Positions 39,857 through 64,000 of a stretch of DNA of 64,000 nt are shown here, one piece after another. Source of the stretch: Ananas comosus (Eukaryota; Streptophyta; Magnoliopsida; Poales; Bromeliaceae); NCBI RefSeq assembly GCF_001540865.1, contig NC_033627.1, positions 4,660,744-4,724,743 of the forward strand, written 5' to 3'. Made by a program: the position numbers and the translations under genes. Numbering within the stretch: position 1 is the first letter of the stretch; each line of letters begins with the position of its first letter. The notes beneath the pieces are model-generated. The model saw only the letters and a program-made list of their open reading frames with translations. It was not told the DNA's origin and did no database searches.

Positions 39857-39881
39857 CTAAGTTTAACACTAATTTTTAACA

Positions 39882-40322
39882 GTTTGGTCATCCGAATCGA
39901 TCATCTGAACTTTCACGAACTGTGTGAGCAGAACTTTATCTTCAAATCTCTCTGCGAAAGTGTGTGTATGAGTGCTTATATTTGACTGTCGTAAATCTAT
40001 AGGCTCTAACATGTTATTTCGCAGTTCATGCGGTCGGAGGAGATTGCGTTCTCAACGAACTAAGTTTAAAAGCATTCGCAGTTTTTTTTTTGTCTTTCAT
40101 ACACTCTCATACTTTGGCTCGTTGTTGATTATACTGCACGGAGTGGTAGTGTTGCAGCAGTTTATTTATACTCAAATGACGCAATGAAAATCCTTTGGTA
40201 TTAATGGTTTAAATTAGCGGCTTAATTACAATTTCTTGTATCAGGTTTAGAGTCATCAGGTTTAGAGTCGACTTGATTCGGTTCCGTGTTTCGGAGAGAT
40301 CTTATCACATACTTTATTTGTA
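39882..40322. other. Intergenic DNA
   Basis: No gene, RNA or element ends recognised. Confidence 0.4.
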
Positions 40323-40470
40323 GGGTTAATTGCATAAAGCTTCCTGCAAATATAGTGAATTAGAAATGTATTTCTACAAAGTTCAACTTTTATATATTGT
40401 TTTTATATGTGTCGTAATATTTTCAAATATGTCCATTTCGTTAGAATGCGTTAGAAAAATTTAGTTAATT
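40323..40470. mobile_element. Left half of a GGGTTAATTGCAT-type MITE
   Basis: GGGTTAATTGCATAAAGCTT, then 'tttctacaaagttcaa' and 'atattttcaaatatgtcc', follow the left arm of the element at 18315-18764. The copy stops where the poly(T) of the next LINE begins, so the LINE probably inserted into it. No right half is found. Confidence 0.65.
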
Positions 40471-41219
40471 TAACTTGTTTTTTTTTTTTTTTTTGAGAGA
40501 TAAGTAGCACGCTACCCGCTTNCCAACCTGAACGAGAGGTGCCTGGTCAACACACCTATCTCGGACTATCAACGTTAACCCGTCCCTGCCCACACAAGTG
40601 TCAGGGTCCCTGCCCATACAGATGTCAGGGCTAACCTAACCCAGTCTAAACTGTAAAGGATGTCAACCAATCACATCTCGTACTATCATATCACTAAACA
40701 TCGCCAACTCAAATAAAGGACGAAAAACCGATAAGAACGAGGGAAGACATCTGAATCACCCACCTGGCTACAACAAAACCCGCCATGGGTGACTCCTGAT
40801 GAACAAAAATGTCATCAAGAGTGCGGGTCAACAATGGGGACAAAACGTCTCGGTGTCCAAAGCCGACGACGCGGAAGGCGCCTAGTCCTAGCTCCGTTCC
40901 CGCAGCGCTCAATCTCGGGATGGGCTGCACAGACTCGATCTCCACGGGGATGACGTCCATCTACAAAACAAAGCTCAAATACATGTATCACCTGAATTGA
41001 GCGGTCACGCTCATCGAAACATAAAACCTAAACCTGATACATATACTTTGAGTCAAACAAATCGAAGACAAAAGAGATCGTCGAGAGATGATGACAAGCA
41101 TCATCACAAACTAAATGTCCATGTCGATAGCGAAGCATATGTCCCCTTTAAAGAAACATATGCCGCCTAAACAGCCGCACGGGCCCCTTGCACAGTAGGC
41201 CCCGCACTGTTGAGCAAAG
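40471..41219 (-). mobile_element. LINE 3' end, minus orientation
   Basis: On the minus strand the end AAGCGGGTAGCGTGCTACTT runs into poly(A) (poly(T) at 40473-40493). It is nearly the tail seen at 39.8 kb in the other direction. Upstream of the tail are two copies of 'gggcagggaccctgaca'-type words and a minus-strand open frame at 40709-40960 starting MDVIPVEIESV, which I do not recognise. An undetermined base lies at 40522. The 5' limit is unclear because it approaches the polarity break. Confidence 0.65.
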
Positions 41220-43070
41220 GGATTAATATATATAAATAAAAATAGAAGACGTAGATTGCATCAACCGATACTTAAATTATGAACTAGAAACACCAGAATT
41301 CTAGTTTTAAATCAACAAAGTAAAAAAATCAACTCTAGTAAAAATATTAAAAAAAACATGAACAAACTATATAATGGAGAGACCCACAACTTTTTCAGAG
41401 GTTCTTAGAAAAGCAAATAAACATGACAATACAACTAATATAAAAATAACAATGGAAACCTAAAACAAAGACCAATGATGGCATGCGTAAGGACCATACG
41501 CGCAATCCCGTCACAGAGGGTGCGAAGACCTAGTTTAGCAAACTAAGAAGAAGAAGGTAATAAAACCTAAAATCGCGAATTGATATTCAATTAATTAAAT
41601 AAAAGTAGTGTTCTGATCAATCTAATATTGTGTTAGTCTAAAAAGTCACGACATAAAAGGGTTATCAAATAGGGGAAGATGGATTGTGTTCAACAGAAAA
41701 GGAAAAATTTATATACAGAAACACAACTCTACGTTTGGGAAGAGCTCTTATTTACTCCGAATTCCTTGTGGATAGGGAAAAACTATCGCTAGATTTATCA
41801 TTTACAAAATTTAACAACGTAAATGAGCCAATGACGCCATATTTACCGGGCTATATCTATAACTACATTACTAGGATAATCGTTACAACGTACCACCTTA
41901 AGCCTACAAAACACCGAACTTCCGTATCCTAATCTGATTACAACGGTAGTTAAGTTAAGTATACTACTAAGTATGAACAGCTCAATACAATGATAATATA
42001 AATAAATTACTAAGAGACGATTAGATATAACAACAAAATCAAAAAACAATTTTTATTATGTCCCGTACTCATATTATGAATATCTAGGTTTAAATATATT
42101 AAATATTGAAGAATGAAATGACAACTGATGATGAATAAAAACTGACTATTTTCGAAAACTTTATAGTATAATGATACTTAAAGTGGGGATAAATAGTTAA
42201 ACTAAAGATAATTAAGGATTAATTAAAGAAAAAATAAAGATAAGTAGATTTACACAGAATTAGTGATAAGATAAATATAAATTAAAAATGTGAAGAAATA
42301 AAGTTTAACTTAAATGGTAATGTTATATTATAAAAACGAAAGATTGGCCAAGGAAGAAGAAGATATAAGTGTTATTGAGAAGTATATCCAGAATTACAAC
42401 GTTAAAATATATTATAACAACAATAAGTATGAATACGAAAGGTCAAACCGGCGGACAAGATACATTAAAAATTTGACCTCATTATAACCAGGTATTTGTC
42501 ATCCTGTCTTTCTTCTTAGATGTCGGTAGTTAAGATGTATCAAGGTCTTGACGATATATCCTTTCATGCATGATTGTGGTAGGTAACTACTAGTATATGA
42601 ACTTACTTTACTTGTATCTCCTTAACATTTTACCACCATGAACAAAACAAGTTAACACCCAACGGAATATACACAAATCAACATCCAATAGAACATAAAC
42701 TATCCCTATTAACGGATATATGGGAAGTATTGAAGCCTTTATAGGCTAAATGGGGATAAAAAAAAGAAAGATTATATGGGGAGCATACAAGGTGGTAATA
42801 AGGTTTTGTGGAGGCGTCAATGGGGAACAATCAATAGAGCCCAATTTGTTCCCAATTTACAGATGGTATCAATTTTAGATTAATTTTATGGATAAAACGG
42901 AGATGAAATGATTTGATAAGGGAATTCAATAGGAGAGAAGGAGAAGGTTGAACCAGGGTAATGCGTTGGCAGCAGAAGTTCGGGATCTACAGCGGGATAA
43001 CCTTTTTTGGCAGCTAAGGGAAAAGGGTAAAGAGAAAACGGGAACGTTTTTTCATGAAAGAAGAAGAGGT

Positions 43071-43330
43071 AACAGAATTCTTACCGTATTAGGAGTACTA
43101 CAGTGGTATCTTAGTTTCCTTGACGCCGTGACAAAGGTAATAAATTCCAAAACCTCGTAGGATGCAACAGAATTCTTACCGTATTAGGAGTACTACAGCG
43201 GTATCATAGTTTCCTTGAAGCTGTGACAAAGGTAACAAATTCCAAAACCTCGTAGAATGCAACAGAGTTCTTACTGTATTGGGAGTACTACAACGGTATC
43301 GTAGGTTCCTAGAAGCCGTAACAAAGGTTA
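43071..43330. repeat. Tandem repeat, about 3 x 95 bp (in the wrong-polarity segment)
   Basis: The marker AACAGAATTC occurs at 43071 and 43166, and AACAGAGTTC at 43261, exactly 95 bp apart. Shared words are 'ttaccgtattaggagtacta' and 'aattccaaaacctcgtag'. No coding sense is seen in either re-polarised strand. Confidence 0.9.
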
Positions 43331-44029
43331 CACGAGACAACCCTCCTTAATTCCAGATGTAACACAATAATATCGAAAGATGCATTTCTTTTTCGATTCT
43401 AAGTAAATTAAAACATTAAAAAATGTAGATCCCAAAAACTTAGATCGATAATATAAAACGAAGATCCACATGTACCATAAAAGACTTTATAAGATACTTA
43501 ATGGAAGAACAATAAAATAGGAATTTGATATTAAAAACGTACGCAACTCTTTTCAACGTTAAAAGATATTATAAGATACTTAATTAAAAAACGGTAAACT
43601 AGAAATTATAGAGAAAGTAGGTAGCTTTACAATGTAATATAAACCACAATAAATTCATATCGATAACTAAACGTTAACGTTGTACCGTGGTCTAACATCT
43701 AACTTTCAATACATACCCCCTCACAAATTTGGTCAATTCTGTCTCAATTCGTCTTTTTTTACACATACCTTACGTTTGAACGATGTGTCATAAATCGCTA
43801 TGTATAAAATTTTCTTAAAAAACTTCTATAGTTCTTTTACACCCTGACCCCTCTTTATCTTATACACGTTCACCGAATATTTAGTTTTTTCTGGTTTCCT
43901 CTTCGAGTTTTCAAATAACTATAATTTCCATTTTCACTAAAATATCTATACAATCTTGTTAAGTATCTACCGTGTCTCTACCTTTATAAACAATGATAAT
44001 CGAGGATACTGTAGGAAAAATTAAAGTTA

Positions 44030-47000
44030 TAAGTCATACTATCATGATGACTAGGATGACCACCACCATGATTACTATCACTATTATCACAACTACCACC
44101 CTTCTTCCTTTTTGAACTATAACCTCAACTACCACTTTAACTCTCATTTCTACTACAATCTTAACTCCTACATTGGCTCCTTCTTCTACTACAATCTTAA
44201 CTCCTACATTGGCTCCTTCTTCTACTACAAGCTCTACTTCCACATCGACTCTATCTCCTACGACAACCTCTACTTCCACATCGACTCTTTCTTATACCAC
44301 AACTTCTACTTCCACCTCGAGTATATCTCCGATTAGTACTACCATCTCGAATATATTACCAACTAAAATAATCTTTACTCTCCCTTCTATTCCCACTTCG
44401 AATGTGCTCCCGATTATTACAATCTTTACTACTCCTCTTACTCTCTCATCTATTTAATCTATTTAGGAGATGACTTTTAAAACTTTTCTTAAATCAAAAA
44501 TCAAGGTAACTTTTATTGAGTTCACTCCTACACAATCAAATACTGTTACTCTTAGGTTAGTACCTGATACCACACTTTATAGTACTACAGTTAAGTAAGG
44601 CTTCACGAGAAAAAATTAAGCAACAGGTTTTAGTTAAAGTTATGTTCCAATATTTTTCACTAGTTAGATCTCACTGTCGTTCTACATACTGTATTCCAAC
44701 ACTCACCTCTTATGTACGTCGTTCCTAAGCTCCTCGATGGAAAGTCCATTTCTTCATTTAAAATTAACGATGATACAGATTATAATGAAATTAGATTAAT
44801 AAAGAAAGTTGGATAATATAGCTGTCCAGTTTTGAGAGGTTAGTCTTGTATATACGCTTCAACAGTTATCCATACCTTTGTTCTTACGATGTTTTACTAC
44901 CTAACGTCTTTCTTAGATTACATCCTGCCCAGTTTGGATAGGATGTTCATTAATAGGGAATCTACACCATCCGTTTTATAAAACGTCTTTTTAATTTGCT
45001 CGTTAAAAAAAATATATCTTTTCTTGCAGGTTTTTCTATTATTTTATTCTTTTTAGACTAGTCTATTCTCGAGCATGGTATGTTGCAGGTTGCTCGCGTA
45101 CTAATTCGATAACGCTAATTAAGTCTAGTAGGTTCTAGATAAACGTTGCAGGAGGATCAGTATGAACATTTACGAACACATTAACTCAAAGGGGGCTGTT
45201 ATCATTAGTTCATAGAACGTTCCTGTTTCCCTCGATTTGTTAAAAGACTTTAAATCCTACTATTTTATTCAGATGCTTAAAAAGGCTCTTTCTTTTATCT
45301 TTAATTTGATAAGATATTTGGTTCGAAAATAATGGTTATCTAATATACGCATCTAACTTTATATCTTTCTTTATGATTAAATAACTAAACTTGGCCCAAG
45401 TAGGTTACAAACCGATGACGAACAACCAAATCGTGGAAGTGTCCACGGACAACTGCACACGTCCTTCGTTTCAACGGAGCCCTCCACGCGTTTCCTCGGA
45501 GCAGACGTCGAAGAAGAAGAACGACGAACGTGTTTCGAGAGTGGAGAGTTGATCTTTGAGGAGATAAAAGTTTTTAGAATTGGTTTGGAATGTTTATTTA
45601 TCAGTTTTAAACGTCTTTTAATTCTCCTTGAGTTTAGGTTATATTGTAATATTGAGACCTGGAGCGATCTTGGCTTTTGTGAGGCCCTTTTTTTTGAAAG
45701 CGGGTTTTTGGAAACGTTCTTTTCAAGTTTTAAAATAAGGTATTAGTAGCAGGGGTAGTATTTTGGAACATCCGATAAACATATCATTAATGTAGGCTCT
45801 TATTGGCTTTTTAGAGTTGATCTCTAAATGGATTTTCTTTTATAAAGATTTGTTCTGAATAGATTTTCCTTTTATTTTATAAGTGTTGTTTTATTAAAAT
45901 TTTATTGTCTCATTTACTCCTTATTAGAAATCTAGGTATATCACCCAAACCCACGGTTGAACGCGGCAGAAGCAACTATCTGGATTTTGAGCCTGCTACT
46001 ATGCCCAGCCCAAACCAGACGTAGTCTTAGTAATTAACCGATTTTTGACTTCCACTATATGTACACTAACTTAATAATTTTTCTGAATTTCTCGTCATAC
46101 CTTCCAACCTCAACGGGATAAATTTCCACACCTTCCCGTTTCTCCTTTGTTACTTGGTTAATGTACCTTTCACTCTTGATAGTAAGAGTTCTCAAAAACT
46201 AAAAACACAACTCTAATCCTCTTCTTTATATCCTTCAGTATGTGTCTAATTTAACTACCTCCACTTCCCCTTTGTTGTAAAAGTTGCTTTCGAATAACGA
46301 AAACCCCGATCATAAGTTCCAAAAGTTTCTCCCACATCCGGTATACAGCCAAATCTACCCCGAGTAGACTACCCATTTAAGTTTCCTTAACAACATAATC
46401 GTTAACGTAACCTACCTTTGTTGAGTTACAAAGGTCAACGTATACCACACCAACTCAGTCTTTTATGTCTCTCAACTCTTACCAAGGACGATCGAGAGTT
46501 CCTTCGTTATCCAACAGGATTACCAAACCAAGATAGATCATTATCTGTTTTTCCGAATCTATTCCGGAAAGATCGACAGATAGGATGACGATTTGTAGCA
46601 TTTACGTACACAGTGAATATATCGTTAAAGTTCTTTGCCAAAGCTCTTCTATAAAACTTCTTTGTAGATCCCTCGTTAATCCCGTATATGTTCAAGATCC
46701 AACTAGTTATGGTATACCTTTTCTCACGTCTCCCGTCTATCATCTCACTAACTAATGAATTCTCTCTTAGTACCAGTACATACCTGAGCGAGAAATAAAC
46801 CTTATCTACGGTTCACGTTTGCTCTTTGGTTATTATAAACACCCTGAAAATTAAGAACCTAGTTATTTCTTGCCTTATCTGGCCACTATCTATACTACCT
46901 ACGGTATACTGTCTTTTATTACTAATACTACTTGTTTTCTTATTCTCTACGTTCTTTTACCAGTTGTTTCGAACATGGTCCTCGTTAATTCGTATAGTTG

Positions 47001-47565
47001 TTAAACTGGTACCATTTAAATTTTTGAACGAACAACAAAGAATGATATTGACGATTTGTTTGTTCGTTTGAATGTTTGAATATAACATAATAATAATAGA
47101 ATACAATTACGTTCCTAGAACTTTTAATATTTCACAACTCCACATCACTACTCGTTGGCTTCTATCTTCCCGGATTAAGTTCTATACTACACTCCAACCT
47201 ACTCTCCTGTACGTGTACATCTTCTACCGTTCAGAGACCTAACGGGACACATGTACGGTAACGGAAATATCGATTCTACTTTGAGTTGCGACTTCTAATA
47301 CATATTAGTATGAAGTGACACCTCTCCATAACTCTACGGATACACAATTTATAATTCGGTAACGGACGGGTTCTCCTAATCCTTCTCTCACTATATCCAA
47401 AATCACACAACGGTATATCCAAAATCACACAACGATGGATATAATCGTTCTAAACGACCGTCCGGTACTTTTTCCTCTTATTCTCCTCGTCTTTTTTACT
47501 AATTCTCTTCTGTATTTACACGATCTACACCACTAAAACAGGTAGTACGTTCTTGTACGTTCTTA
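44030..47565. pseudogene. Mutator-like (MULE/MuDR) transposase, readable only in the base-complement
   Basis: Read as the left-to-right complement. (a) 44080-44350: an acidic N-terminal stretch with a near-exact tandem repeat (DDVRIEDVTEEE twice, then DEGVAE variants). (b) 44540-44890: a MuDR-type DNA-binding region (NSFRSALF, VVQNQFQYKVIKSDQSRVTA), split by an apparent GT-AG intron whose acceptor CGACAG is at about 44826. (c) From about 46020, INWLKTEGDIHVIELLKRLK and the core: CRPYVGLDGAHLMGKFKG, ALDGNNSMFPVAYGVVESEN, RQKGLDKAFLAVYP, HRKCMCHLYSNFKKRF, NSWINKERNRPVIDMMDA. (d) 47230-47290: a SWIM finger, CTCRRWQVSGLPCVHAIAF. (e) 47517-47558: a CCHC knuckle, CARCGDFVHHARTC. Stops replace expected Trp or Glu residues at several points, so the copy is dead. 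About 1 kb (45.0-46.0 kb) is non-coding, either intron or insertion. Terminal repeats were not found. Confidence 0.92.
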
Positions 47566-47589
47566 TTACAAGGTTGTCGTCCGGGATCG

Positions 47590-48240
47590 TGTGTTAGGTA
47601 TTCCATTAAATAAAGAAAGTTTGATGATATAGTAGAAAGTGAAAAAATCATCAAAGTTGTAGATGTATATCATTAGAATTTGAAGAAAAGGCCGTTTTTT
47701 TTTTCTTTTTTATCACCTAGTGTCGTTGTTCTCGTTCTAATGCTTGTATGCCGTCGTCGTTATAGTGTCGTCGTTCTTTCCAATAAAGTACTACGATTGT
47801 GTGTTAAAAGTTCCGTTAGATAAAGGTAGTTCGATAATATAATAGAAAGTTAAAAAACTATCAGAATTAAATATTTTAATCACTGAAATTTGAAGTAAAA
47901 GTTATTCTTTTCTTCTTTTTTATTGCCTAACCTCGTCGATCTTGATTAAGAGTTCTACGTCGTTGTCCTCGTAATGTCGTCGTTTCTCATAAAGTACTAC
48001 GATCGCATGGTAGAAGTTTCATTAGATAAAGGTAGTTCGCTAATGTTATAGAAAGTTAAAAGAATATCTGAATTAACGATTTAAATTACTGAAATTTGAA
48101 GTAAAAATCATTCTTTTCTTCCTTTTTATCACCTAGCGTCGTTGCTCTCGATCTAAGAGTTCTATATCGTCGTCATCGTAGTGCTGTCGTTCCTCATAAA
48201 GTACTATGTCGTCGTTGTTGTTTGAGCGTCGTCGTTGTAC
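47590..48240. repeat. Triplicated exon-intron unit after the MULE knuckle (wrong-polarity segment)
   Basis: Three copies about 195-215 bp apart. In the complement each has a short Lys-rich then Gln-rich coding block (GSQQQEQDYEHTAA in the first), followed by an intron-like stretch starting 'ggcaatctatttccatcaag' and ending near 'cttcattttcaataag'. On the given strand the repeated marker is 'agataaaggtagttcg' (47819, 48015) with a variant at 47607. This would extend the C-terminus of the MULE protein by repeated Gln-rich exons. Confidence 0.7.
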
Positions 48241-48244
48241 TCCG

Positions 48245-49141
48245 TTAAGAGATAAGTGTTGTCCCAAGTTGGTAAAGATTGTAACTACGTTCGTATAATG
48301 ATTCAACTCTCAATTAAGTACATTTCTAACGTGAGTACGAAACGATTATACAATACAAAAAAAACAACCTACTACTACCACGACAAAAAATAATAAACTA
48401 CTATCGAGATAATAAAAAATCTACTACTACTAGGACAATAAAAAAACCTACTACTACCATGACAATAAAAAACCTACACCACTAAATATAAAACCTCGAA
48501 CTTACTATAATAATAATAAGTGCTTTAACAAGCATATACTCGTTAACGGACACGGTACTACATTGATCACGTGAAAGGTTCATTAACGTTAATATATCTC
48601 TCGAATTTATTCTGTAGGATGTATATTATGAAAAAATAGTCTAAATGTTATAACATTAACGTACAGATTTTATGATTTCGTAGGATATAGTATTATGAGG
48701 TAGTGTAGATGTCACAACATTAACATACGGATTTTACGAGGGGAATAGTCATATAGTTCCTAATGTTATGTCTTTTCATTAAATTCAGTTTTGTCTTGAA
48801 AGTGAATGTAATAAACATAAAAAACGAGTCACCGAAGAGGTTAACGAATATTGACTATAAAGTCTAGATGTCACGACACAACATGTAGCAATTACAGTAC
48901 GGGGCCCCGGTTAAAATTTTCGGAAAAATTTTGCTAATGGTAAAGTCTTTAGTCTCAACGCCTTTCGCACAGTAAAAAAAAAATAAAAAAACTTACGTTG
49001 GAGCGGGTGCACTACATATCTGGGCGGTGTTTATGTTTCAAGGAGATAGGTGAACCTGTCTCAGAAGAAACATAAACGTGCCGCATGGTTGTTATGTAGT
49101 CCTAGAGTTGGTGTTGGATGTAAGTGGTTAGTCGTTGGTTA
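48245..49141. other. Wrong-polarity DNA, no product recognised
   Basis: Contains short repeats ('ctactactac' at 48368-48480) and two diverged copies of a block of about 75 bp (around 48610 and 48680, with 'atgtataacattaacgta'-like words). Nothing in the complement or reverse reads as a known protein. Confidence 0.4.
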
Positions 49142-50352
49142 TTCCCAGACAAACAAACATGCTTTCACCCCACCTTCACCCTTCCCCTTTCATTAAAAGT
49201 CACTTTTGATTAGTGAAGGCAACAAACCAAGTGGCATTAAAATAATGCGGGCTTTCAGGTCAAGTGGGTTTTTCCACTTTAACTGAAGCGGGAGGGTGCC
49301 CCCGCTTCAGTTAAAGCCACTTCAGCTTTTATTTCGTTCTCACCCATTACACAATCCCAATGGCTGGGTTGAGATGGGTATGAGATGGGAAGAGAGAGGA
49401 GGGCTGGGATGAGAGAGATAAGAGATAGGAAAGGAGAGGAGGGTGGTTGAGAGCGGTAAAAAAACAGAATCGTCTGGGGTGTTTTTTTTTTTTTTTTTTT
49501 TAGAGGGAGTAAAAAGAAAGTGGGGGTCTCGTAACAACTCGGGTGGATGAGGTAGAGGAAGCGGGGACTAGAAGAATTCGGGCGAAGAAGTAGAAACCAC
49601 TGATAATCCAAATATAATAAATAGAAAAAAAAAAAAAGTATAAAACAAAGAAGTTAGGAAGGAAGACAGAGATTGGTAAGTAGAAAAAGCTAGAGTCTAG
49701 AGCGTAAGGCAAAGGTAGAGGAAGGGATAGCATCAACTGTTCCAAACGTTTATTTAAAAAAGCAGAGACTAAATAACATCAAAAATAAATAAAAAAAGAA
49801 ATGACATTAAAAATTGTAAAAATAAATGACGTCAAAGTTAAAAAAAATTAAATGACGATTAAAATAAAAAAACGAGACTAATAATTTCTAAATTGTAAAC
49901 ACAACATGGATTAGTACAAAAAAATAAATGACGTAAAAGATTAAAAAACGGGAAATAAAAACTACTATGTATATATATATTAAAATATGTATATATTAAA
50001 CACAACGAGACTAATAATTTATATTAAAAAATTTTAAAATAAAATATTAATATGTATATATATATTAATATATGTATATATTAATATAATTAAAAATAAA
50101 TAATATTAAATAATAATTGATATTCAATGTTTATCTGTTATTAAAGTGAAGCCTCCATTGATATGGTCCCCACCTCTATATGTGAAAAATGCAGTAGATG
50201 AAGGATGGTTTGTTTGTTGTCTTGAGTGTCTTGACGTGAAGGTGTCAATCTTTGTTTGTCGTCTTCACTTGATTAAAAGTGGGGTTGAGGTGAAGTTGAG
50301 GTTCAGGTGAAGGTGGGGTTCAGATGAATGCAGCTTTGTTTGTACGGGATTT
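49142..50352. mobile_element. TIR element of about 1.2 kb (wrong-polarity segment), hAT-like ends
   Basis: In the complement the left end reads AAGGGTCTGTTTGTTTGTAC. Read right to left, the right end gives TTTAGGGCATGTTTGTTTCG. Both are followed by 'gtggggtggaagtg'-type words. These are the same kind of TGTTTG-type ends as at 32606. A hairpin with AACTGAAGCGGG / CCCGCTTCAGTT arms lies at 49279-49316. The interior has poly(T) at about 49483-49501 and A/T-rich DNA. Confidence 0.65.
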
Positions 50353-51779
50353 ACGCTATGCAAATGTATGTCGATCGCAAGGAGTCTCTACTACGTACGG
50401 AGATTTGTGAGGAATCCACGACCTACTACGTTACGTATCATGTTGTTCGTAGGATAAATTTTCATGAGGGTGGGCCTTCGAAACTAAAAATTTGAGATTA
50501 ATTAATAGGTATTTTTAGTAAGCTTTTGGAAAAATTTTGACAAAGGGTGAGCCTTTGAGGCAAAACTTTTAGTTGACGGAGTTCCCCATCTTTTGGTATT
50601 ACGTATTTATGTATTCAGGCTCTTGGTTAATAGATATTTTGGTTTTGGTGTCTAGGTATTTGAGGTCAACGTACGTATTACCTTTAGTGGTTCAATTTGT
50701 ACAAGTGTTTGTAAGTTTATAGTTATTATTAGTAGATTGACTTGGTAAATTAATAATTTAATGATTTACTTCTTTATTTTCATTGGGCCCATTGCTAGCG
50801 ATGACGGCAGAACGATCTTGCAGGAGGGCAGCTCGGGTTTTCGGTTGAGGAACGGGCTTAGTGGACCCCTTTATCCCCCACTCTTTGATGTTAGTTCCAA
50901 AAGGTCACCTATGCTGTCTCGGTGCTTCCGTTCAGCATAAATGACTTTTTGTTTCCTCTATCCTCTTGTTTATACATATACCGTACTATATTTTCGTTGA
51001 TGTCATCATGATCTTTGTCCTACCGTTTACTCGCTCTTGCTTTGATGATGACATTGTTTTTGAGTTGACTTGCCTACGGAGTTCTCATTTATCAGGTTTT
51101 AGTTTGGGTTAGACCTCGACGATATAACCAGGCTTCTGGAGTTCGCAACGGACAGTGTCTCGTCTGTGACGGTTACTAAGTATACAGGTGGCTGCTGGAT
51201 AGGCCTATGCATGTGGGGGACCAACCACCGGTTTGGTTGACCACAGATCTTATGTGTCACGACACTGATTTAGTACGACTATACGAGTTTTGCTTTTGGC
51301 CGTTCCTCTGGCCACGGAACCGGCTTCGGTCTACGTTCCCGCATGTTACGGCTTGGTGCTAGTTGATCTAGCTTTGTGGGCTGTTTCCTCAGCTACACAA
51401 CGAACCTGGGTTTCAGGTATCTATATGTTGTACACGTTCGGACGAGATGTACAGATAGTTGTTGATGACAGTACGTTAGTTGTTCCATATACAGTGCGGG
51501 CCTATAGTCGCCTTCGTCTGGGCTATGTACGTGTCTGGGCGGTATGTGGACATCATATATTCCACAGATGATTTAGTACAGTCCTTCCATGGCTAATGTT
51601 TCTCTAAGATTATACTATAGTCTCGTTGTGTATTTGGTTATCATGATGATAATCGTCTTTTCATTCATATTCAGAGTCTTTGAGTTGTTCTCTATCTTTG
51701 GATTTTGACATTTATGTAGTCAGATTTGGTTGTATATGTAGAGTTCCAGCGGGTTTTGATATATTTGTATTCACCATCA
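50353..51779. other. Probable LTR-retrotransposon sequence (wrong polarity)
   Basis: In the complement, ATGATATCAGAGC at about 51614-51626 differs by one base from the initiator-Met tRNA primer-binding site used by plant LTR elements (TGGTATCAGAGC), so the DNA just before it may be an LTR. One near-match is weak evidence, and I could not fix LTR ends. Confidence 0.35.
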
Positions 51780-54060
51780 GAGAGATATGTCCCCATGTGT
51801 AGTAGGAGCAGTCCTAGAGTTTTATCGCTCCACTAGTGGATCGTCCTGAGGTGCGATACGGATCGATCTGCGCTGAGGGAACGGCGCTAGGGATCGGAAA
51901 GGGCAGCACCTACCGAGACATTTTTGTTGTTGTTTTTTCCCGCACTCTTGATAATTTGTTATCAAGGGTTATCCATTCGGCGGTCGGAGCCGCTTAATGT
52001 GGTGATCTAAGTATTCCATGATGATTTTTACATTCTTGTAAATAACGTATTATCTATATAGTTACTGTTAATTGCTATTCGTACATCGTATGACAGGTTA
52101 TATAGTTGGGTAATCTTCGTTCATTTTACTAATGATACTTGTATTTGTTCAGTACATCCCTACATTGACATGTGATGAGTCACTATTAGTAGATAGCAGT
52201 AGTAAATCATGAAACCCAATCGAGTATTCCTGGATGAGTTCCATCAGGTCGAACGCGGCGCGGATTACCGGGGCACTATTATATGTGAGGGGTGCCGTTA
52301 GGTAAAGCCGTGGATTATGGCGTGCCCACTCGTTAGACAGCGCATCCGGTTGAGGCCTCACGGCCGAACACCCCTCGCTGGGAGTGTTCGTACACGCTTA
52401 CTCGTGTTACCGTTCGTTCGTGCTAGATATCAGGTTGTCAAGAGTCAACAGTACAAAATTGTACATTTCAAGAGTGAGAGCTGGTTATCCAGCCATAAAT
52501 TCATATTACTTTTTATGATCATAGGTGATCTAATTATTGAGTATTTTCGCTACGATTGTATGTATACAGTAACCTTTGAATTATTATATTTACGTAATAA
52601 TGAGTATAGTGTTCACATACAGGAATAAAAGTTGAAATTTCCCTGTATAATTCCAGTAATCAAATCCTTTGAGTTCGAATCGATCACTAGTTACGTAACG
52701 GAGTTAATGAGAAGTGAATTGTGTATAATCAAGTTAACGTGTTATAATTATCAAGATATCATAGTATATCTTGTATCCCCTCAAAGTGAACGAGACCATT
52801 CCAGTTTGGGTGGATGATCAACTACTGAGAACAGCTTAAATATAACTAGTCGGTAGGCTCCATAGGTCCAAAGGGATGACATGTTTAAGTTTAGTCGATG
52901 TTCGACTTAAATCTATGAATATTATTTGAAGTGGATAAGCGGCTTATCCTTCATTAATGAATGGATCCAAATCCTTTTTCAATTCAGATGAGAAGTTCCA
53001 TCCATCTTCGGGGGGGGGGGTTATGAGTCGAGTTTCGACAAGTTCGCTAAGGGCTTAAGTCGAGTTGGTTCAGAATTAGGACGACACTTGATTAATATTT
53101 TGACGTAACTTTGATCATGGTTTTGTAGGGTTAAGTCGTTGTAAGAGTGGAACACGTTTCGATGTCGAACATGGGGATAAAACCAAGTCCAATCATGTAG
53201 ATTAAGTCGGAGATTTTCGAGGGCTATGAGTCGGCTCTTAGTAGGTTATGGGACAGTGTTCGGACGACGCTTATTTGTAGATTTGACGTAGTTTTGATAG
53301 TATTCTTGGAAGTTAAGCCGTATTAAAATGGATCCACGTCGTGTCCCAGTTTGGAAATGAGGCTGAAGCTAATGTGTGGACTTAGGTCGAGTGTCAATGG
53401 GGAGTTAAATCGAGCTTCCCTTTTGGTTGTCGACTCTTGTATTTGGGTTTTTAGTCGTAGAGGTGAGGTAATGATGTAGGATATACAATAGTTGTATTCC
53501 GTCCCTTAATTGATGAGTGGAAAGGTTTCAGAGTTAAGTCGAAAGAAACTTTAATTTCATCTTCTTGGGGTCCTTGATCGAGAAGAGATCGACAGGAGAT
53601 TGGAGAGAGTCGAGTCGATCGTAGTTCATCTCCTCCTTTAATTCGAGTTCAGGTGGTAAGGAACGTAGTCTCTCTCTCTTTAGATCTCTCTCTTTCAATC
53701 TCTCCACATTGGGAATAGGGACCTGAGGTCGTGGGAAACCCATCGACGACCCCAGCACGACTCTCCTACTCCTATCTCTACCTTTCCTTTTTCTGGTTTT
53801 ACCGGGTCGACGGTGCGTCGATGACGACGACGACCAAAATGGCCATGTTGTAGTTACAACATGGTCATGTTGTTACGTCTTAGACGGTTTAAGCGTCCTT
53901 GTGACGTGAAAGAGTGAAGGCCGAAAGTCTAGTGAGAGTATGAACAGGTGATTGGAGAGATTTGGGAAATCTTGTACATCCTATCAAGGTTAGCAGTAGG
54001 GGTGTGAGTTTGAAGTGTTAAACGATTTCAAGTCACATGATGTCATATCTATATGTTTAC
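51780..54060. repeat. Long direct repeat, copy 1 (wrong-polarity segment)
   Basis: Colinear with 56240-58920. Shared blocks are CACTCTTGATAATTTGTTAT (51949 / 56342), 'atgtggtgatcta', 'ggattaccggggcac' (52261 / 56888), 'gtgccgttaggt(a/g)aagccg', 'tcactgggagtgtt'-like words, 'cgttcgttcgt(g/a)ctag', 'ccagtttgggtgg' (52800 / 57820), and 'ttcaagtcaca(t/c)gatgt' (54028 / 58904). Offsets grow from about 4.4 to 5.0 kb, so indels separate the copies. Candidates are two long LTRs of one element or two solo LTRs. Confidence 0.75.
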
Positions 54061-56239
54061 TATTTGTTTCGTTGACTGTATATCTCTGATGTTACGACTT
54101 TATCTTCTTGTCTCCTTCCACTTTGCTAGAGTGGCTGATGGTCGAGCTTCATGGATGGACAGTGACAGCGCAGCCTTTTGACCCACACGTGTTCAGTTGG
54201 CCTAGATGCTTCTAGGTGACCTAGTCATAGGTTGAATGTTTGGGTTTCATATGCTGAGTGCTTGGGGGTGTGTTTAGGGGCTTTTAATCAAAGGGTTTGG
54301 CTAGTGGTATTGATCGGCCTTCAGGGTTTTTGGTGTAGCCCTGCGGCAGCCCTGGGTGATTCACAGGGTTTTGAGTGGCTAAGCACGGTGCTCAGTGGGT
54401 GACGGTGTTTTGTGTAGTTAAACCTACGCAACCGTCGTTTGTGTTCCATTGTGTTTATTTGTTAATAGTAGCCTATTAACAAACCTAGGCCTAAGGGCCT
54501 TCACAGATAAAGTTGTGACCTTGGGGGGCAGCGAGTGGGCAGTAGAGGCTTGAGTGTGATACTGCTACCACTGGTCGGCTGTTCCGAGTCACTGTTTCGA
54601 ATCCCGTTTGTTTGTTGCAGCCTTCTTTAGGTTTGACTTTGGCGCAAGGCGGCCGCTTAAAGCGGCTTTTTTACGTGATTTTAACGATAAACTAAAGGCG
54701 CTTTCGATAGCCTGGAACCTGTTAGTCAGGTCTCCAGTGATGTGTATGAATATATGACGGGTGTCATCGGTGTTCTACGTGTTAACGTATTTTCAGGGAG
54801 ATAAATGTATTTTAGGGTGATAAAATACATTTATTCCGCTGAAACACCGAACTATTGCGTTTGATTCCTGAAGGTTCTAAGCGGCTCTGTGCATGACTGT
54901 CCAGAGCTGTACGGCTTATGGCACGAGTGCTAGGCCTCGTGTTACCGAGTGACACCCTCCGCGCCCTCGCTGGGCTTGATAGTCGCTTATCGTGCGTGAG
55001 TCCCTTTTGACACGGTTTTTACGTCAAAGCCACAAGCAACTAGGTTTCACTCCACTCGTAACACTAGCCGTGACTGGTCGCTAGTGGCACGAGTAGAAGC
55101 CTCCGTAGCCCTATCGGAGCCTAACGGCTTTTTTACGCACGTTGGGTCTTATCATTTGTTTTCGGGATCTAATTCGAATGGCCTCGTCGTCCTTGATCCC
55201 GTTCGACCGCCACCGAGACGCCGCCCGCGCGGTCATCAGCTACCCACGCCAGCTGCACCTCTCCGGCTCCGAGCGTGGACGGCCACCGCCCTCCGCCGCC
55301 ACCACCGCCGCCTCGTTTGGCTCGGACGTGTTCGGCTCGAGCTCGAGCCCCACGTACGGCCGGAGCTGCCGCCAGCCCCGCGGAGCCCCGCCGCCGCTCC
55401 CAGCGGCCCCGAGGCCCCCTCCGTCATCCTCACCGGAATCCGCCGACGCCGCGCGCCCCTCTCCTACGTCCCAGTCGAGACAGACTAGGGCGGCTTCGTC
55501 GGTCGTCCCGATTTCATCGTGCCGCCGCCACGAGCCCCGCCGAGCCCCGCCGCCGCCGCCTGGCGGACTCACATTCAATACTTCTCGGGATCCTAGATAG
55601 ATCTAACATAGTTTGTGGATCTTCCCCACTTATACACATTGCTGGTTTTTAGTATTTAGAGTTACGCTATTTTCATTTACGCATTTTATTTTTAGTGTGG
55701 CTCTAAATGCACCCTTTTGAGGTTAAACCTCATTTTTTGGGTGCCCTAGTTGTGCGCTTTTTTATTAAGTGATTCTCTTTTCTAATGTTCCACTAATGGC
55801 TGAGGTGCCTGAGCTGGAGAGAATTGGAGGATACTTAGAGCGCGTTAGGGGGCCCAACAGGTACGGGAGTGCAAGCTTAGGTGCTTGCGGAGCGAGTGCA
55901 GGCTTAGGTGTTTGCGGTGAGCTTAGGTGCTCGGGTGCTAGGCTTAGGAGCTTGGCGGAAGCTAGTGTGGCTTAGGTGCTGCGGCATGTACTTCGTGGAT
56001 GCCACGTGTGATCCATAGATGTTGTGGATATCTTTCTTCATCTTTATTTAGGATTTGTTTCACTAGTCTCGTTCATATATTTAGATGATATATCTGTCCA
56101 AATTATGTTTATATGTAAGTGTTCTATATGTTGTTCATACTTATTTTAAATGTAAAACTTATAATCCTCTAGAAATGTGTTTTATGTTAACATGTGGAAA
56201 GTGTGATTTTGGTTTTCTTACTACAGTTACCCATGTTGT
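54061..56239. other. GC-rich block between the long direct repeats (wrong polarity)
   Basis: Strongly GC-rich at 55080-55620, with CCGCCG-type runs that keep several frames open by composition alone. None of the frames, on ordinary or re-polarised strands, shows a motif I know. 55855-55980 has degenerate repeats of 'gcttaggtgcttgcgg'. Confidence 0.5.
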
Positions 56240-58920
56240 TATCGTTGTGGCTCCTCCAAGATCGATCAGCGATTGGGAACGGTACTAGGTTTCGGAGAGT
56301 ACACACCTTGCGAGACTTTGTTTTTGTTCGTTGGTTACCCCCACTCTTGATAATTTGTTATCAAGGGTCATTTATTCGGCGACTCTCAACGCTTTATGTG
56401 GTGATCTAGTTCATTCTGTTCTATTAATATTGACTATATACTCGTATTTACATCCTTGACTTTACTTTACCAAAATGATGATAGGACGGGGATTCACTAT
56501 TACGGCTTGTACTTACACCAAGATTCTAACAGTATACATATTCACATTTATATGTTTAAATATACATACAGGTAGAAATATAATTCTCGTTATCAATTTC
56601 TTTTTTAAAAGTAATAGTAGTACACCGATGAGGTGATATGACTAGTTGTACACATATCTAGATGATTATAATTCAAACGGTTATATTTATTATTGGTTGA
56701 ACTTATAAGCAAATGACACATACGTAGTTAACTAACACTACATATTACAGTGTTTCATTATTAGTTGAACTTATAGGTAAATGATATATACGTAGTTGAT
56801 CAACACTACATGTTACAATATAAATGAATTGAAAATGGGTTAGTTGCTCCCTAAATGTGTATTATTGTAGGGCCGAACACGGTATGGATTACCGGGGCAC
56901 CATCAATTATAAGGAGGAGATCCTTACTCGGAACGAGTGCCGTTAGGTGAAGCCGCGGATTAAAGCGTGCCCGCTCGTACTACGCGTTTCCGATTAAAAC
57001 CTCACGGCCGAATATCCCTCACTGGGAGTGTTTGAACATGTTTACTTGTGTTTCCGTTCGTTCGTACTAGTAAACACAGTACAGGTTCCGGTATCCAGAG
57101 CTAGTAATACAGATTTTGTACTTTAGAGTTAGTAGCTGAGCTTTCAGCCCATGATATTGTATATACAGTACTAGGAAAAGAGTTAGTTACACCCTTACGT
57201 AGGGATGGTTATACGTTATACAAAGTTCGTACATTTCCAAATGTTGAAAAATAGGATCGTTCCTATCAAGATATAGAGTACGTATTGGTACCCTTCAATA
57301 TTCACAAATGATAAAAGAGATATCATACATTCTATTGTTAAATAATTACAGTATAAGTTTCTTATACTCCTACAGTTGGTCCAAGTATAAAGTACAGTAC
57401 GTACACGGAACGATATATTCGGAGATGGTATATCTTTTCTTTCAAGTAGTACGTTCGTGAATGAAGAGTAAACTGATTCGTTAAAATGTGTAAACGGTAG
57501 TACAGAATTAGTTTAACAAGGTAACTCGAACATTACAACTTACGTGTACTATCGCGTTGATACATGGATGTATATCGTACGTACTCTCATCAAATGGTTT
57601 CATGATCTTGTTCTTTTTCTTATCCAAAGGTCCGTCGAGTACATAGTACTGTATATACATAAAATAGAGTGTATTGAGATGATGTATCTCCTATACTTAG
57701 AAGTACACTTCATACTGGTTTAGTATACGAGTTTTTAAGTTCTTACGGTGTTCCACGTATAATTTGAGAAATAATTCAGGATATTGTATTATCCTCTATA
57801 TCTACCTCAAGTGGGTAAAGCCACTCCAGTTTAGGTGGCCTATTGGAAGCTTTTGAACTAGTAAAAGATTTACTTCAACAGGAGATTTGAAGATTGTGGG
57901 ATTCTTTTTAAAGGTACCCAAATGATTGAAAATTTTTTGAATGGTGCTTTAAGTAATTTTTAGTTCGTCTTTAATCCACTTTTAATGGAATTAGGCTCTG
58001 TTCGAACACGTTTCGGGTTTAGTTATATTACCTCGAAGTTTTCGTTGGATGTTCTCACAAGTTGTGAATAGTTAAGGTGAGGTTTTCGAGTGTTTTCTTT
58101 TCGGGGTTTAGTTTAGGATCAAAGATGTTTTGATCTAAAAGATGGTTTTAGAGAACATTTAGAGGGTTTATCTCTCATGATCCTACGATGATTGGAGTTT
58201 AGCTCGAGGTTTGGTTCAATACTCCACGATCCCAACTTCAACTAGGAGTTTGTTTGAGGAGGGAAGTTAGAGTTCGAGGGGAGGTTCCGGATCTACGAAC
58301 ATAGATTTCTCCTCTCCTTCTTTTTTCTCTAGTTTGGGTTTCTAATCTCCCAATCCCTTTCTTTAGATTCTCTCTATTCTCTTTCTCGAGTGGAGAAGAA
58401 AAGAGAAATTGAAGTCGTGTTTCTCTTGTTATTCTCCCTATTCCCCTATATAATGTACTACATTGTTATAAGGGATTCTGGGGAGTTTTTGAGTTTTTAA
58501 TGTTTTGACGTGCTTTGTTAAAGACGTCGTAACCCATGACCATGAGCCGTCAAGCCCATGGTCTCTGGGTCAGAGCGTTTTGAGCTTGCAATCATTAAAA
58601 CCAAAAGATAACGCAAGACCATGCTCGGGCTACATCATGGTCATGAGCCAAAGCATAGCCATGTGTATCGGCTCAAGGCGTTTTGGGTTCTCGATAGTTT
58701 AGGTTGTGAGTTGACCCAAGGCCATGGGGTTTAGGGTATGGTTACGGTTTATGTTTTTGACGTCAAACTGTCTAAAACTAGAGGTCTCAGGCAAAAGCGC
58801 GAATAATCCGGAGTTTTTGTGAGGATTCGAGAGGTTTGAGTCAGTTTAGGAAGTCTTATCATATTTTCGTGATAAGAGAGTGATCTTGAGGCATAAAACA
58901 TCTTCAAGTCACACGATGTA
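56240..58920. repeat. Long direct repeat, copy 2 (wrong-polarity segment)
   Basis: Partner of 51780-54060, with the same order of shared blocks. Within it, 56690-56820 carries its own tandem duplication ('ttattagttgaacttatagg' and 'tacgtagtt(a/g)a(c/t)(t/c)aacactaca'). Confidence 0.75.
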
Positions 58921-58959
58921 TCAATGTGATAAAGAGGAGGGTTTCTTGTGAGAAATTCT

Positions 58960-59240
58960 ACTTTTAATGTGAGAAATTTACTTCCAATGTGATAAACCCT
59001 CTATCAATATAATAAAGAGGAGGGTTTCTCATGGGAAATTCTATTTTTAATGTGAGAACTTTGCTTTCAACATAATAAACCCTCTATTAATGTGAAAGAG
59101 GAAAGTTTATCACGTTAAAAACAAAATTTTTTACATTAAAAATAAAATTTCCCACGTCAAATATAGAGTTTCTTACGTTGAATGTAGATATTATCACGTT
59201 GCAAGAAAATTTTATTACATAGAAAAAAAATTGTCACGTT
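58960..59240. repeat. Degenerate short tandem repeats
   Basis: Repeated 'aatgtgagaaatt', 'gtgataaaccctctat' and 'cacgtt(g/a)aa' words over about 280 bp. No product is implied. Confidence 0.6.
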
Positions 59241-59299
59241 GAAGTAGAAGAAGAAGGAAGAAGAGATTAATAAGAAAGAATAAGAGATCAAAAATAAAA

Positions 59300-60330
59300 A
59301 TCAATTAAAAAAAAATAACATTCGTTTATTTTTACGAACTGATCTATATGAGGGCATGTGGGGGCGGAAGGAACGGAAACTGGAGCGATTCCGGCGCGAG
59401 CGGCGGCGGGTCGCGAAAAAAACCGCAGCAGTGCAAGAGAAAGCAGAGGTGGAGCGAGCAGCAGCCGGGATCTACCCTCGTTACCCAGCACACGGGAGAG
59501 GTAGCGTTCGCTCGAAGAACCGTGACTCTTCGCGAAGGAAAAAAAGCAGCAGCCGTTACCACTCCTGCTACTCAAAGGTCTTCACCCAAACCATCCACTT
59601 TTTAGACGATGTCACCTCCATCTCCACCTCCACCTTCACCTCTACCTCTACTCAGCGTTTCCCGGCGTCTCCGCCGCCTCCTCCAAACTTCTCTTTTTTT
59701 CTCCTAGTGTTGCATCGAGCCGCCCCAGCCTCTACTCTTCTCGCCCTCCACTCGCCCTCCACCAGTTCCCGTGTACCCCACCTCCGCTCCTCCCCGCAGG
59801 GTTTCCCTCCGCCGTTTAGTCGGAACCATCCCAGCCTCCATTCCTCCCGCCCATCACCCGCTCTCACCCCCCCTACCCTCCCCGTTTCCGCTCCGCCCGC
59901 CGGAGCAGAGGTGGAGGTGGAAGTAGAGAGAGAAGCCTCTCCTTTTTTTTTCTCTCTCTCTTTCCTTATTCCCATAAAACCAGTCAAAAGATTTTTAAAC
60001 CTTACTTAGACGTTTTAGCTTTTCCTCCGGGTTAAAACGTTTTCGAGTTTTGAACACTTAAAAAATATGTTTAACCGGAATATTTATAAGTATTTAAATA
60101 AACACTATTTAAATATTTTTAATTTCATAGTATTTAATTTTACTTAAGAATCGTTATTCTCTACAAAATAAATTATCTGAAAAACACAACTGAATCTCAG
60201 ATGATAATGAATAGCGTGAAGAATAAATTAATAAACAAATAAAAGCTTTTTTATTATTGATCTCAAGGAACATAATCGACAGCGGTGAGTACACGAGAGG
60301 GACGGAAGAGGGTTTGTAGTGAGAGGGATA
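59300..60330. other. GC- and CT-rich block (wrong polarity), no product recognised
   Basis: Several overlapping open frames on both ordinary strands (59288-60009) are Ser/Pro- or Arg-rich, as expected of biased composition. No family motif appears in ordinary or re-polarised translation. Confidence 0.4.
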
Positions 60331-60349
60331 GGAGAGGGAGAAGGGGAGC

Positions 60350-60590
60350 TGTACGAAACCGGTTGCTCGAGGAACGGCCACTTGAGTATCCGCTGCTCGA
60401 GGAGGGGCTTTAGAGAAACGGACGCTCGAAGAATGATAGTAATAGGAGTGACCACTCGGGGAGCACCGACTAGAGGAGCGGCCATTCAACGAACGGCAAC
60501 TAACGGAACGGCCGTTCGGCGAACGATGGCTAGTGGAGCGCCGCTGGAACAATGATAGCAACAGGAGCGGCTACGGGAAGCAGTAACTAG
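60350..60590. repeat. Roughly 15-bp degenerate tandem repeat, coding-like when re-polarised
   Basis: Units such as 'gctcgaggaacggccac', 'gaggagcggccattcaac' and 'ggaacggccgttcggcg' recur every 15 bp or a multiple. Read right to left, one frame gives repeated LAGKAINGK and LTGEEISHEG-like units. It may be a repetitive segment of the neighbouring gypsy element; that is inference. Confidence 0.6.
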
Positions 60591-61269
60591 AGGTGTGTTC
60601 TCTTTCCAGGAGGAAGGGAAGTGGAGGAGAGAGAGAAATAGAGTTAACGTGTTTTAAGATATTAAGTACGTACTTAGATGAACAAAGAACTTCATTAAAT
60701 CTTTGGACTTACTACTAAAGTACACCAACGAAGTAAACGACACCAATTACTAGAACAAAACCAACAACTCAAAACGTACGGGTACAAAAACTAAATACGA
60801 AGAAACTCCCAGTACTTATTATGGGGTAATTAATTCGGAAGTCTTATTCTTATTGGTTTTCCCTTTATCAACTAGGCTAAAGTATTGTAAAAAAAAAATA
60901 AAAAACTCTATGATCAAGAAAAATAAAAATAGACGTGACGTTTCTCTTCGAATAACCCGTACCATCTTCCTTACCCTTATTGTTGAAAATTGTTGTGATA
61001 AGTTTATTGTAATATAAAATGTCGTTCCAAATTTTACAGAGAACAGGTTTTACGAAGAACAGGTATATGAACAAAATCTCCTAAAAAACTCTTTAACGCA
61101 CGGGAAGCTCAATTTAACCACTTAAAGATCTTTGGGTTAATGTACTATAGAAACTAATTAATCACTTGTAAGAAACTAATTAATCACTTGTAATGATGTG
61201 ATAAAAATACTGCCAATTATACAATCGGATGTACTATGTTTCCTAAAACTAAGTATACACGTAAGTAAA

Positions 61270-61960
61270 CACGACTAACGAAGGGCACTTCAGTCAGTAT
61301 CGGCATAGTTATCCGAACTCGAACAGAAGTGAGAACAGGTTGAAGAACTTTTTACTGCATCCGTACTACAACTGGTACCGGGTCGACAGCTAGTAATGTG
61401 TCGGAGATCCGGCAGGAAGATAATCTCAGTACTATATATTCCCAGCCTATTTAAACCAAGTATCCCGGCTACCGAAAAGTTTATGATAGCATAACCGGTG
61501 GAAATGTAGAAGCTCAACCTCGACCCGTTGCCGGTCGAGGAGGAATATAACTTCAAGGAGGAGTTAGAGATGACTAAGACAGCACTTGTTTGTACCGTCT
61601 CGCATGTGATACGAATACAGGCGACTTGAAAGAAGCCAACGTTGAAGAGCCCAGAAAATAAAAAAGAGGAGCCTAAGAAAACGGTAAAATCGGCTTATAA
61701 GTGAGAAACTGGAGTGTAGAGAGAGGAACCCACCGGTAGCGAGGACGAACTACTTCCAGAGTTCCCTGCACTAAAAGAAGAGATCGAGTAACACCCACTA
61801 GAAGAGGTAACCGAGACGACGTTGGCTAACGAAATAAAACCTGAAGTTGGTATCCTACCCTAAACTCAGCGAACGTAGTAGCGGTAAGAAGTATCCAGCT
61901 CCCCCCGTCGGTGACGCGTCCGACAAAGATGCACAAGCTGGAGTAGGAAAAGCGAAGAAG
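61270..61960. pseudogene. Ty3/gypsy retropepsin region, readable right to left
   Basis: Reading the given strand from right to left without complementing gives ISIVYALPCLFTTE, EELQYKEELAVAQLQLEDV, VFEKPSAL, KFIRPLYI and VMIDSWAMVNIMPTSFFQEV, then PIDTAMTDFTGS. This is the order of the plant Ty3/gypsy aspartic-protease region; the active site (D-S/T-G-A usually) reads DSWAM here. With internal stops it is inactive. The element runs in the opposite sense to the MULE, so both strands of the segment carry readable genes once polarity is corrected. Reverse transcriptase was not found further left; the element may be deleted there. Confidence 0.88.
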
Positions 61961-61965
61961 GGTTA

Positions 61966-64000
61966 CTAAAGAGTAAAGCCGAATTTAGGAGACAACAACG
62001 GTAAAAACACAGAAGCAGTCACGGTCGGGTATGGTAGATCGGCCGTGGGAACGGTACTGGGTAACCAGTCAGCCGTGCAATCGACCATAGAAATGGTAGA
62101 ACTCCACAAGGGAGTTCTAAAAAGAAGAGAGGGTTCCAGAGTCGGTACCGATTTACTACTCAAATAAGTGTTTGGAGGTTGGTTCTTTAAAATACAGGGG
62201 GAGCTAGTAAGGAAGTTTAAAGCCAAGCCTAGAACCGAAACCGACAACCACGGTACGTCCGACGATAAAGTCCACGGAGACGCGATCCACGGCTTCCCAA
62301 CAGAACCCACTAGGAGAGCCGGGTAGAAGAGAATACAGATCATTATGAGTAGTCCTGGAAGACTTAGCCACCCAGGAAGTACGGAAACCGTCTCAAATCC
62401 AGAAGAAGTTTTAACAATCTCCGGAGAAGGTTCGTAAGTAGCCTCATCGGCTACCGTAGTCCATGGAGGGTGAGACGTTCCTTCCGATACTTGAACAAGG
62501 TGAGTGTCATGTGGAATAAGAGCGCATACTACCGAAAGGTCAGGATTGTGCAGTAAACCGGAACATGAACTACGTTTTGACTTCGTAAGAAGGACAGAAC
62601 AGGTGTAGGAGAATTTTAAAGAGGAAAACCTCACCAAAAAAAAAAGAAATACAGGTGATACAACTGGACACTCTCTTTCCCTAAAACCAGTTGAAAATAT
62701 AATGAAAATAAAAGAATGAGCCGTTTATGATCTGTTAGGAGTAAATTAAAAAAAATTAAACGGAAAATTTCCAACACGTCAGTAATCATGACACCGAGGT
62801 ACTAACCATGATGAACGTTATAAAAGAAAAAAAATCAAGGAGAGATCTATATTGCGAACTGGAAGAAGCTCGAACTAGGACGGTAGGAATATATTGACTA
62901 GCTTATAAACTAACCAAAACAACTGCAGTTTCCTTATCTACATGCAATGGTAAGTACGAAAATAAAGCGACCGGAAACGATCGGACTCGTTACGTGTAAA
63001 TATCCTAACTACCAAAAAGTGGTAAAGTCGGCGTATGTGGAGCCGGAGTAGTCGGCTCAGAAGATAGATCAACCTCAACAAGTCGAGTAGAACTCGACTA
63101 GGGAGAAGTTATTTTCTCTGTAAGAAGAGAAAGAGGAATGAAATAAGGAACAAAGCCGAGGTTGTGCCGGCTAGGAGGGATAAAATAAAAGATTTAACAA
63201 ACATAACCCGCTGAGCTTGTAGGTTTAGCTTGTCTAACTCTTTTATAAATAGAAGTTTTAACAGAAAATAGAATTTTACGTTTAGTAATTTATGATAGAA
63301 ACACTTTGAGTCTAAAGCCATAGGAATGTTTCATAACCAAAGATCGACAAAACTTTATCAAGTTTATAAGAAGTTGGTAAAGGGAGTTGCAAACAGCTAT
63401 GTTCCGGTTCAGTCGGTGACTATTAAATCCAAGTATGGATATTTTAACGAGTACTTTTAATACAAGGTTAAACAGGGTTGGCGTCTGTCTTAACCACCCA
63501 TCTGATCACATGGTACACTTACAGTAGAATCAATCGCTGCATAATTTGTTTGTTTCAAAGTTTTTATCCATTCGTCGGCGAAGAGAGGTTACCCAGCACT
63601 TGGCTCGTTGTACGTGGTGTAATAAGAACCAGAGAAACGGGCTCTTGAACAGCTTAAAGCTATAAAAGGTTAAACGGGTCATACCTACGAGACGTAACTA
63701 TAATCGACCTATGCCCTTAGATTTATGTCCAGCGTAACGGCTGGAACGGGGATGTGGTTTACATAAAACCTAACAGAATAAATAAACTCGTATATCGAGT
63801 AATAAGGGATAACGACCTCGTCTTCGACCCAACCTCCGTGTAAACCGATACCTCCGACAGGCATTAAAACATAACATCCCAATTCAGGGATACTATGCAA
63901 CCCCGGAACGGGGGTTGAGAATGTAGGTATAAAACCCTGACTATCCGATCGATCGTTTCCTCTACCTCTTCCATTTGGGTGCGTTAGAGATCGACACCCG
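61966..64000. pseudogene. Ty3/gypsy Gag, readable right to left, runs to the right edge
   Basis: Right-to-left reading from about 63790 to 63490 stays open for about 100 codons: RFPYPANINAEHPYWANWKI, SKFDKFSGKETKNNVVHVAR, TKMTFTWYTSLPTNSV, then a W-x-x-LEHNFHEHF stretch. After a frame slip comes VADLALYRQTLREMVEEYL (about 63420-63365). These are the conserved steps of plant gypsy Gag. A later piece at about 62120-62000 (PANVPTDQWVMARVP, ALTKTQKWQQQR) fits the region before protease. The 223-codon frame on the ordinary minus strand (61966-62637) is a shadow of this. Confidence 0.88.

Follow-up and report, generated by a model that had tools for sequence, protein, structure and literature searches.

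A probable assembly artefact in Ananas comosus: a 28-kb block with its letters in reversed order

Draft genome assemblies contain scaffold orientation and inversion errors, in which a piece of wrong sense stands beside a join. Such a piece still reads as valid DNA on its opposite strand, where a search can find it. A different operation, the reversal of a sequence without complementing it, is described for SPUMONI 2, where reversed uncomplemented sequence serves as a null model and the authors rely on reversed strings behaving as random sequence (PMC10197461). Here, we describe a 64,000-nucleotide stretch of Ananas comosus DNA (the window; assembly GCF_001540865.1, 381,958,007 bases in 3,128 contigs; contig NC_033627.1, called C7 below, positions 4660744-4724743) that holds most of a 28,223-base block, block 1, whose letters run in reversed order. 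Like an orientation error, block 1 is a wrong-sense piece beside a join; unlike one, it has letter order and strand uncoupled, and two-strand searches therefore miss it. The operation equals that of SPUMONI 2, but there the reversal is deliberate and serves as a control, whereas here the reversed letters pass for genome sequence in an assembly. Part of the content of block 1, MULE transposons with a SWIM zinc finger and long terminal repeat (LTR) retrotransposons with a Retrotrans_gag domain, consists of ordinary repeats, and the writing alone is wrong. No precedent in print for such an assembly error was found in the part of the open-licence full texts that was searched.

Reversed polarity of block 1

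The initial annotation, made from the letters of the window, had assigned about 22 kb from 41220 onward to inverted polarity. The inverted polarity itself is borne out by a match in reversed order to another contig, C18, by oligonucleotide composition, and by protein domains that appear in the wrong polarity; both the start and the length required revision. Read backwards, 40524-68745 can be aligned over its full length with C18:1067390-1095457; of the 28,369 alignment columns, 27,763 are identical (97.9%), 158 are mismatched and 448 hold gaps. Divided into 57 bins of 500 columns, the alignment shows no difference in 45 of them; the differences cluster at a 210-b gap within a repeat, at about 55.5 kb, next to a lone N in C18, and to the left of 42241. 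The step in identity at 42241 (Table 1) is likely to be a chimeric joint through a repeat. The C18 stretch is of normal polarity in all 17 of its 2-kb bins.

Similarity searches gave the same orientation. At E <= 1e-6, block 1 had 25 reversed and no standard matches to the rest of a 264-kb segment of C7 comprising the window and the surrounding contig, in agreement with the prediction that ordinary searches would be blind to it. Against C18 there were 62 reversed matches and a single standard one (41 b in a simple-repeat stretch). When sequence outside was compared with sequence outside, 1,108 matches were in standard orientation and 14, all weak, in reversed polarity, each pair being counted once from either side. 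Complementing without reversing, the check that had been proposed for the source genome, recovered a copy of 46175-47303 at 100% over 1,129 b in C18, together with 30 further matches at 65-92%. As given, the same segment matched, genome-wide, itself and two places that are both themselves reversed, and 43739-44614 as given occurs in the assembly only at its own place. Since these pieces sit at their own place in the source assembly, the reversal is not an edit of the window alone.

Dinucleotide ratios that take one value in a DNA string and another in the reversed string change at about 41 kb in the window. From 40 kb on, all 12 of the 2-kb bins had a ratio (TG+CA)/(GT+AC) below 1, and of the 20 bins to the left 19 had a ratio above 1; CG/GC exceeded 1 in 11/12 versus 7/20 of these bins, and TA/AT in 8/12 versus 0/20. 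A 4-mer score trained on 1-40 kb was negative in each of the 23 1-kb bins that follow 41 kb; of the 41 bins to the left, 2 were negative, one of them a tandem array at 10 kb. With 4-, 5- and 6-mer scores, scanned over the 264-kb segment in window coordinates that run past 64000, the deepest reversed segment lay at ~40.45-68.6 kb (log-likelihood ratio, LLR, -317 to -343), and with a strand-symmetric 5-mer score at ~40.46-68.62 kb (LLR -343 and -347). The 5-mer score was below -13 in 52 of 52 windows of 2,650 b tested in block 1, and below zero in 8 of 431 such windows outside the blocks (minimum -7.8), those near the two reversed blocks of C7 or across long N runs being excluded. Oligonucleotide polarity flips at the edges of block 1, as in a mirror artefact.

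The protein content is legible in the wrong polarity, and two earlier readings held: a MULE transposase readable only in the left-to-right complement, and a Gag, putatively of gypsy type, readable only in the right-to-left uncomplemented string. The complement of 46175-46474 (E 2.9e-5) and of 46478-46678 (E 2.9e-4) matches adjoining halves of the MULE transposase profile (PF10551), each below the curated cut-off, and that of 47109-47303 matches SWIM (PF04434; E 1.7e-10, above cut-off), so that the wrong-polarity reading carries a MULE domain plus a SWIM zinc finger. The right-to-left reading carries a gag domain (PF03732; Table 1), as expected of a gypsy LTR retrotransposon. The two readings correspond to the two strands of a single molecule whose letters were reversed. 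Four of the eight wrong-polarity pieces tested had a Pfam match; the 292-codon frame at 43739-44614 had none. Among 64 standard-frame open reading frames (ORFs) of at least 65 amino acids on both strands of 40523-64000, none matched Pfam at E <= 0.01, which agrees with the earlier view that this is not an ordinary inversion. The C18 counterpart, with 88 ORFs of at least 65 amino acids, gave MULE twice and SWIM, Retrotrans_gag and Transposase_mut once each, as well as two marginal families at E about 0.005-0.007, one of them RVT_N (E 0.0047).

Block 1 begins directly after a lone N and ends, with no N, outside the window. The proposed start at 41220 was rejected: 40523-41219 looked plausible by eye as given, but it matches LTR copies in reversed polarity only, and the start is therefore 40523, with 41220 lying near the end of an LTR rather than at a block edge. 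The partial LTR at 40523-41211 is 94.8% identical, in reversed polarity, to C7 window coordinates 146011-146699, and sequence from 68746 on is 75% identical, in standard orientation, to that from 146700 on. The match to this C7 copy thus breaks at one base (146699/146700), where block 1, once restored, runs on into 68746. The same joint is seen in C18, where 1095458 and 1095457 align at 40523 and 40524 and 1095459 aligns at 68746; a single mismatch occurs there. The left-edge letters of block 1 read backwards end ...GTCCAACC and continue into GGCATGAGCG... at 68746, and C18 has ...GTCCAACT and then GGCATGAGCG. At its far end block 1 has ten C in a row, the same as C18:1067390 on. From the sequence, block 1 appears to have been reversed in place within the contig, between the lone N and 68745; such a block equals a piece of the opposite strand that was complemented and left unreversed, and the operation originally proposed fits this geometry.

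Ten C followed by TCCC begins two apparent contig ends, at 68736-68745 (beyond the window) and at C7:4627031, an odd end for both to share.

Other reversed blocks and lone Ns

Five reversed blocks of ~0.3 to 28 kb have been mapped (Table 1). The inner end of block 2, on C7, lies within 119051-119714 at a tolerance of 2 nats. Compared with the remainder of C7, block 2 gave 38 matches in reversed polarity, every one inside 116826-117554, and none in standard orientation, and its reversed reading contains a WD40 match (E 3.3e-11); the best match in the PDB is a WD-40 repeat protein (E 1.5e-46), followed by COP1-named chains at E about 7e-26. This protein piece recurs at C12:2135177-2135497 with 100% identity across 107 residues, and as far as this one match shows, block 2 would be a duplicate of a C12 locus.

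The loci on C9 and C1489 were found through the genome-wide search with 46175-47303 as given, which matched C1489:8635-9618 (90%) and C9:7183509-7184075 (65%, E 1.9e-17). For the larger C9 block, the left flank stops at position 7187945 of the partner; the block scores an LLR of -14 and its partner one of +14.5. The joint of the smaller C9 block was extrapolated over 3 unaligned bases. On C1489, 8187-8343 matches C18 up to 1088528, and the partner resumes with 1088529 at 9818. Both C9 blocks lie within a stretch of tandem MULE-like copies.

A lone N adjoins one edge of each of the five mapped blocks, which points to an assembly step. The inner edge carries an N in none of the five and is continuous once the block is restored in all four that could be tested; continuity with a reference copy at the inner end was found in three of the four further blocks. 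Some scaffolders write one N where contig ends overlap but were left unmerged (a negative gap). Two lone Ns have duplicated flanks, 47 b repeated exactly on both sides at C7:4798601 and 120 b at 99% at C18:1086127, which fits such unmerged contig-end overlaps.

One LTR, queried in string-reversed form, gave at least 43 search matches on 24 contigs, block 1 included (40 of 56 candidates scored). In normal polarity the same LTR gave 3,344 first-look candidates (40 scored), and the ratio of reversed to normal copies, ~1.6%, is a crude one that compares 56 with 3,344 first-look candidates rather than scored copies. Within the 264 kb of C7 the reversed query finds block 1 only, and the normal query 8 places.

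Table 1. Coordinates of the reversed blocks and of features in and beside block 1 (window coordinates unless a contig is named)
Feature	Position	Strand or reading	Remarks
Normal-polarity left flank	37900-40521	+	Repeats matched in given orientation
zf-RVT domain, normal-polarity flank	37945-38622	-	E 8.5e-9
Lone N, left edge of block 1	40522		Adjoins 40523
Block 1	40523-68745 (C7:4701266-4729488)	String-reversed without complementing	28,223 bases, past window end; C18 alignment, composition
Partial LTR	40523-41211	Reversed polarity	Remainder beyond block, from 68746
Identity step to C18	42241-42258		Right: 98.9-99.8% in long aligned pieces; left: 90.7%
292-codon open frame	43739-44614	Left-to-right complement only	Upstream of MULE pieces in that reading
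MULE pieces plus SWIM zinc finger	46175-47303	Complement reading only	Stops within; 100% copy at C18:1088749-1089877
Retrotrans_gag (PF03732) open frame	63290-63880	Right-to-left uncomplemented only	E 2.9e-7, above cut-off
Block 2	116739 to ~119390 (C7:4777482 to ~4780133)	Reversed	Lone N at 116738
Reversed block, C9	C9:7183253-7184093	Reversed	N at 7184094; partner C9:7187946-7188786 reversed, 99.05%
Reversed block, C9	C9:7186377-7186663	Reversed	N at 7186376; partner 7181721-7182003 reversed, 94%
Reversed block (MULE piece), C1489	C1489 8344-9818	Reversed	N at 9819; 8635-9818 reversed to C18:1088529-1089751, 87.8%

Origin of the reversed letter order

Block 1 is not a biological feature, and nothing in it is biologically new. 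The reversed letter order of 40523-68745 is an assembly artefact, and we consider it probable that it arose in a contig-joining or end-extension step that complemented an opposite-strand piece without reversing it. Such a step, or the output of a path into a gap, would have added opposite-strand pieces complemented but unreversed; the gap would then have received a single N, and later flips of whole scaffolds would have placed this N on either side of the added piece. The step may have wandered through repeats, which would explain why block 1 is a second copy of a C18 locus and why block 2, by its one protein match, would be one of a C12 locus. The recurrence of reversed blocks and the lone N beside all five that were mapped speak for a cause in data handling, which the initial annotation had named together with a deliberate edit in place of a biological process. 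Several observations weigh against a joining or extension step. Block 1, at 28 kb, is long for an end extension; a reversed block adjoins only 5 of the 15 lone Ns in the C7, C18, C9 and C1489 sequence examined, and three of those five belong to two loci picked for their reversed MULEs. The 43 LTR matches derive from one query, are a lower bound, and were counted as search matches. Because its composition signal is weak (LLR -1.9), C9:7186377-7186663 was assigned by its N and its continuity, and the inner edge of the C1489 block at 8344 was placed by continuity alone since 8344-8634 (291 b) has neither a partner nor a polarity signal (LLR +0.4).

Other origins can be weighed against the same evidence. 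If a faulty flip by the scaffolder had affected an entire, separate contig from the opposite strand, without extension or merging, one edge would be a lone N, as between scaffolded contigs, and the far end of block 1, with its run of ten C, does look like a contig end. The inner edge, however, lacks an N in all five blocks and is continuous once restored in the four testable cases, so that the piece seems to have been fused to its neighbour already; because inner edges carry no N, whole-contig flipping is ranked lower and appears improbable. A partly different account, in which C7 truly carries a duplicate or an alternative haplotype of the C18 segment and its polarity alone is wrong, would explain why there are any mismatches (158) and gap columns (448) at all and why the left 1.7 kb differs by ~9%. 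It is hard to square with the 45 difference-free bins among 57 and with the flank past the far end, C18:1064001-1067389, for which the C7 stretch examined offers no more than dispersed matches of 40-212 b, and we regard it as unlikely, though worth keeping in mind.

That the block is a deliberate edit, planted in the data as a control rather than inherited from the public assembly, would suit a pattern that no cell makes. But the block is found in the source assembly at its own place, a single LTR recurs reversed on 24 contigs, and the mapped blocks vary in size from ~0.3 to 28 kb, which leaves a planted edit very little credit. A biological origin, whether by ordinary inversion, inverted duplication or mirror-repeat DNA, found no support in any of these analyses and is given virtually no weight: an inversion would read on the other strand, yet none of the 64 standard-frame ORFs matches Pfam, and at E <= 1e-6 the block has no match in standard orientation elsewhere in the C7 segment. 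To our knowledge, no polymerase or recombinase reverses 5'-3' order.

Implications for the assembly, and minor features

A string made by no cell is nevertheless present in a chromosome-scale assembly. The content of such a block escapes two-strand searches, so that exons vanish, as with the WD40 exons of block 2, and a reversed stretch can pass as novel, unconserved DNA. Since reversed matches recur across contigs, analyses of gene loss, repeat content and k-mers, and DNA language models, may be touched wherever they draw on this assembly; by extrapolation, several Mb of it would be affected. We suggest, tentatively and with slightly less than even confidence, that DNA of mirror polarity represents a systematic class of error that has stayed hidden, making up ~1-2% of this assembly and likely also present in others that came from the same joining or extension step, in which exons are silently lost and false 'novel' sequence arises, invisible to homology-based quality checks and visible to a k-mer polarity scan. 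The oligonucleotide polarity scan finds long blocks without a database and is applicable to other assemblies.

The left flank of block 1, 37900-40521, occurs at full length only at its own place (39 of 3,929 candidates scored). A tRNA scan returned none. A third reversed piece indicated by composition, 10202-10703 (LLR -20.6), was rejected as a 36-b tandem array (14 copies, 10209-10712) that resembles its own mirror image and thereby mimics reversed polarity.

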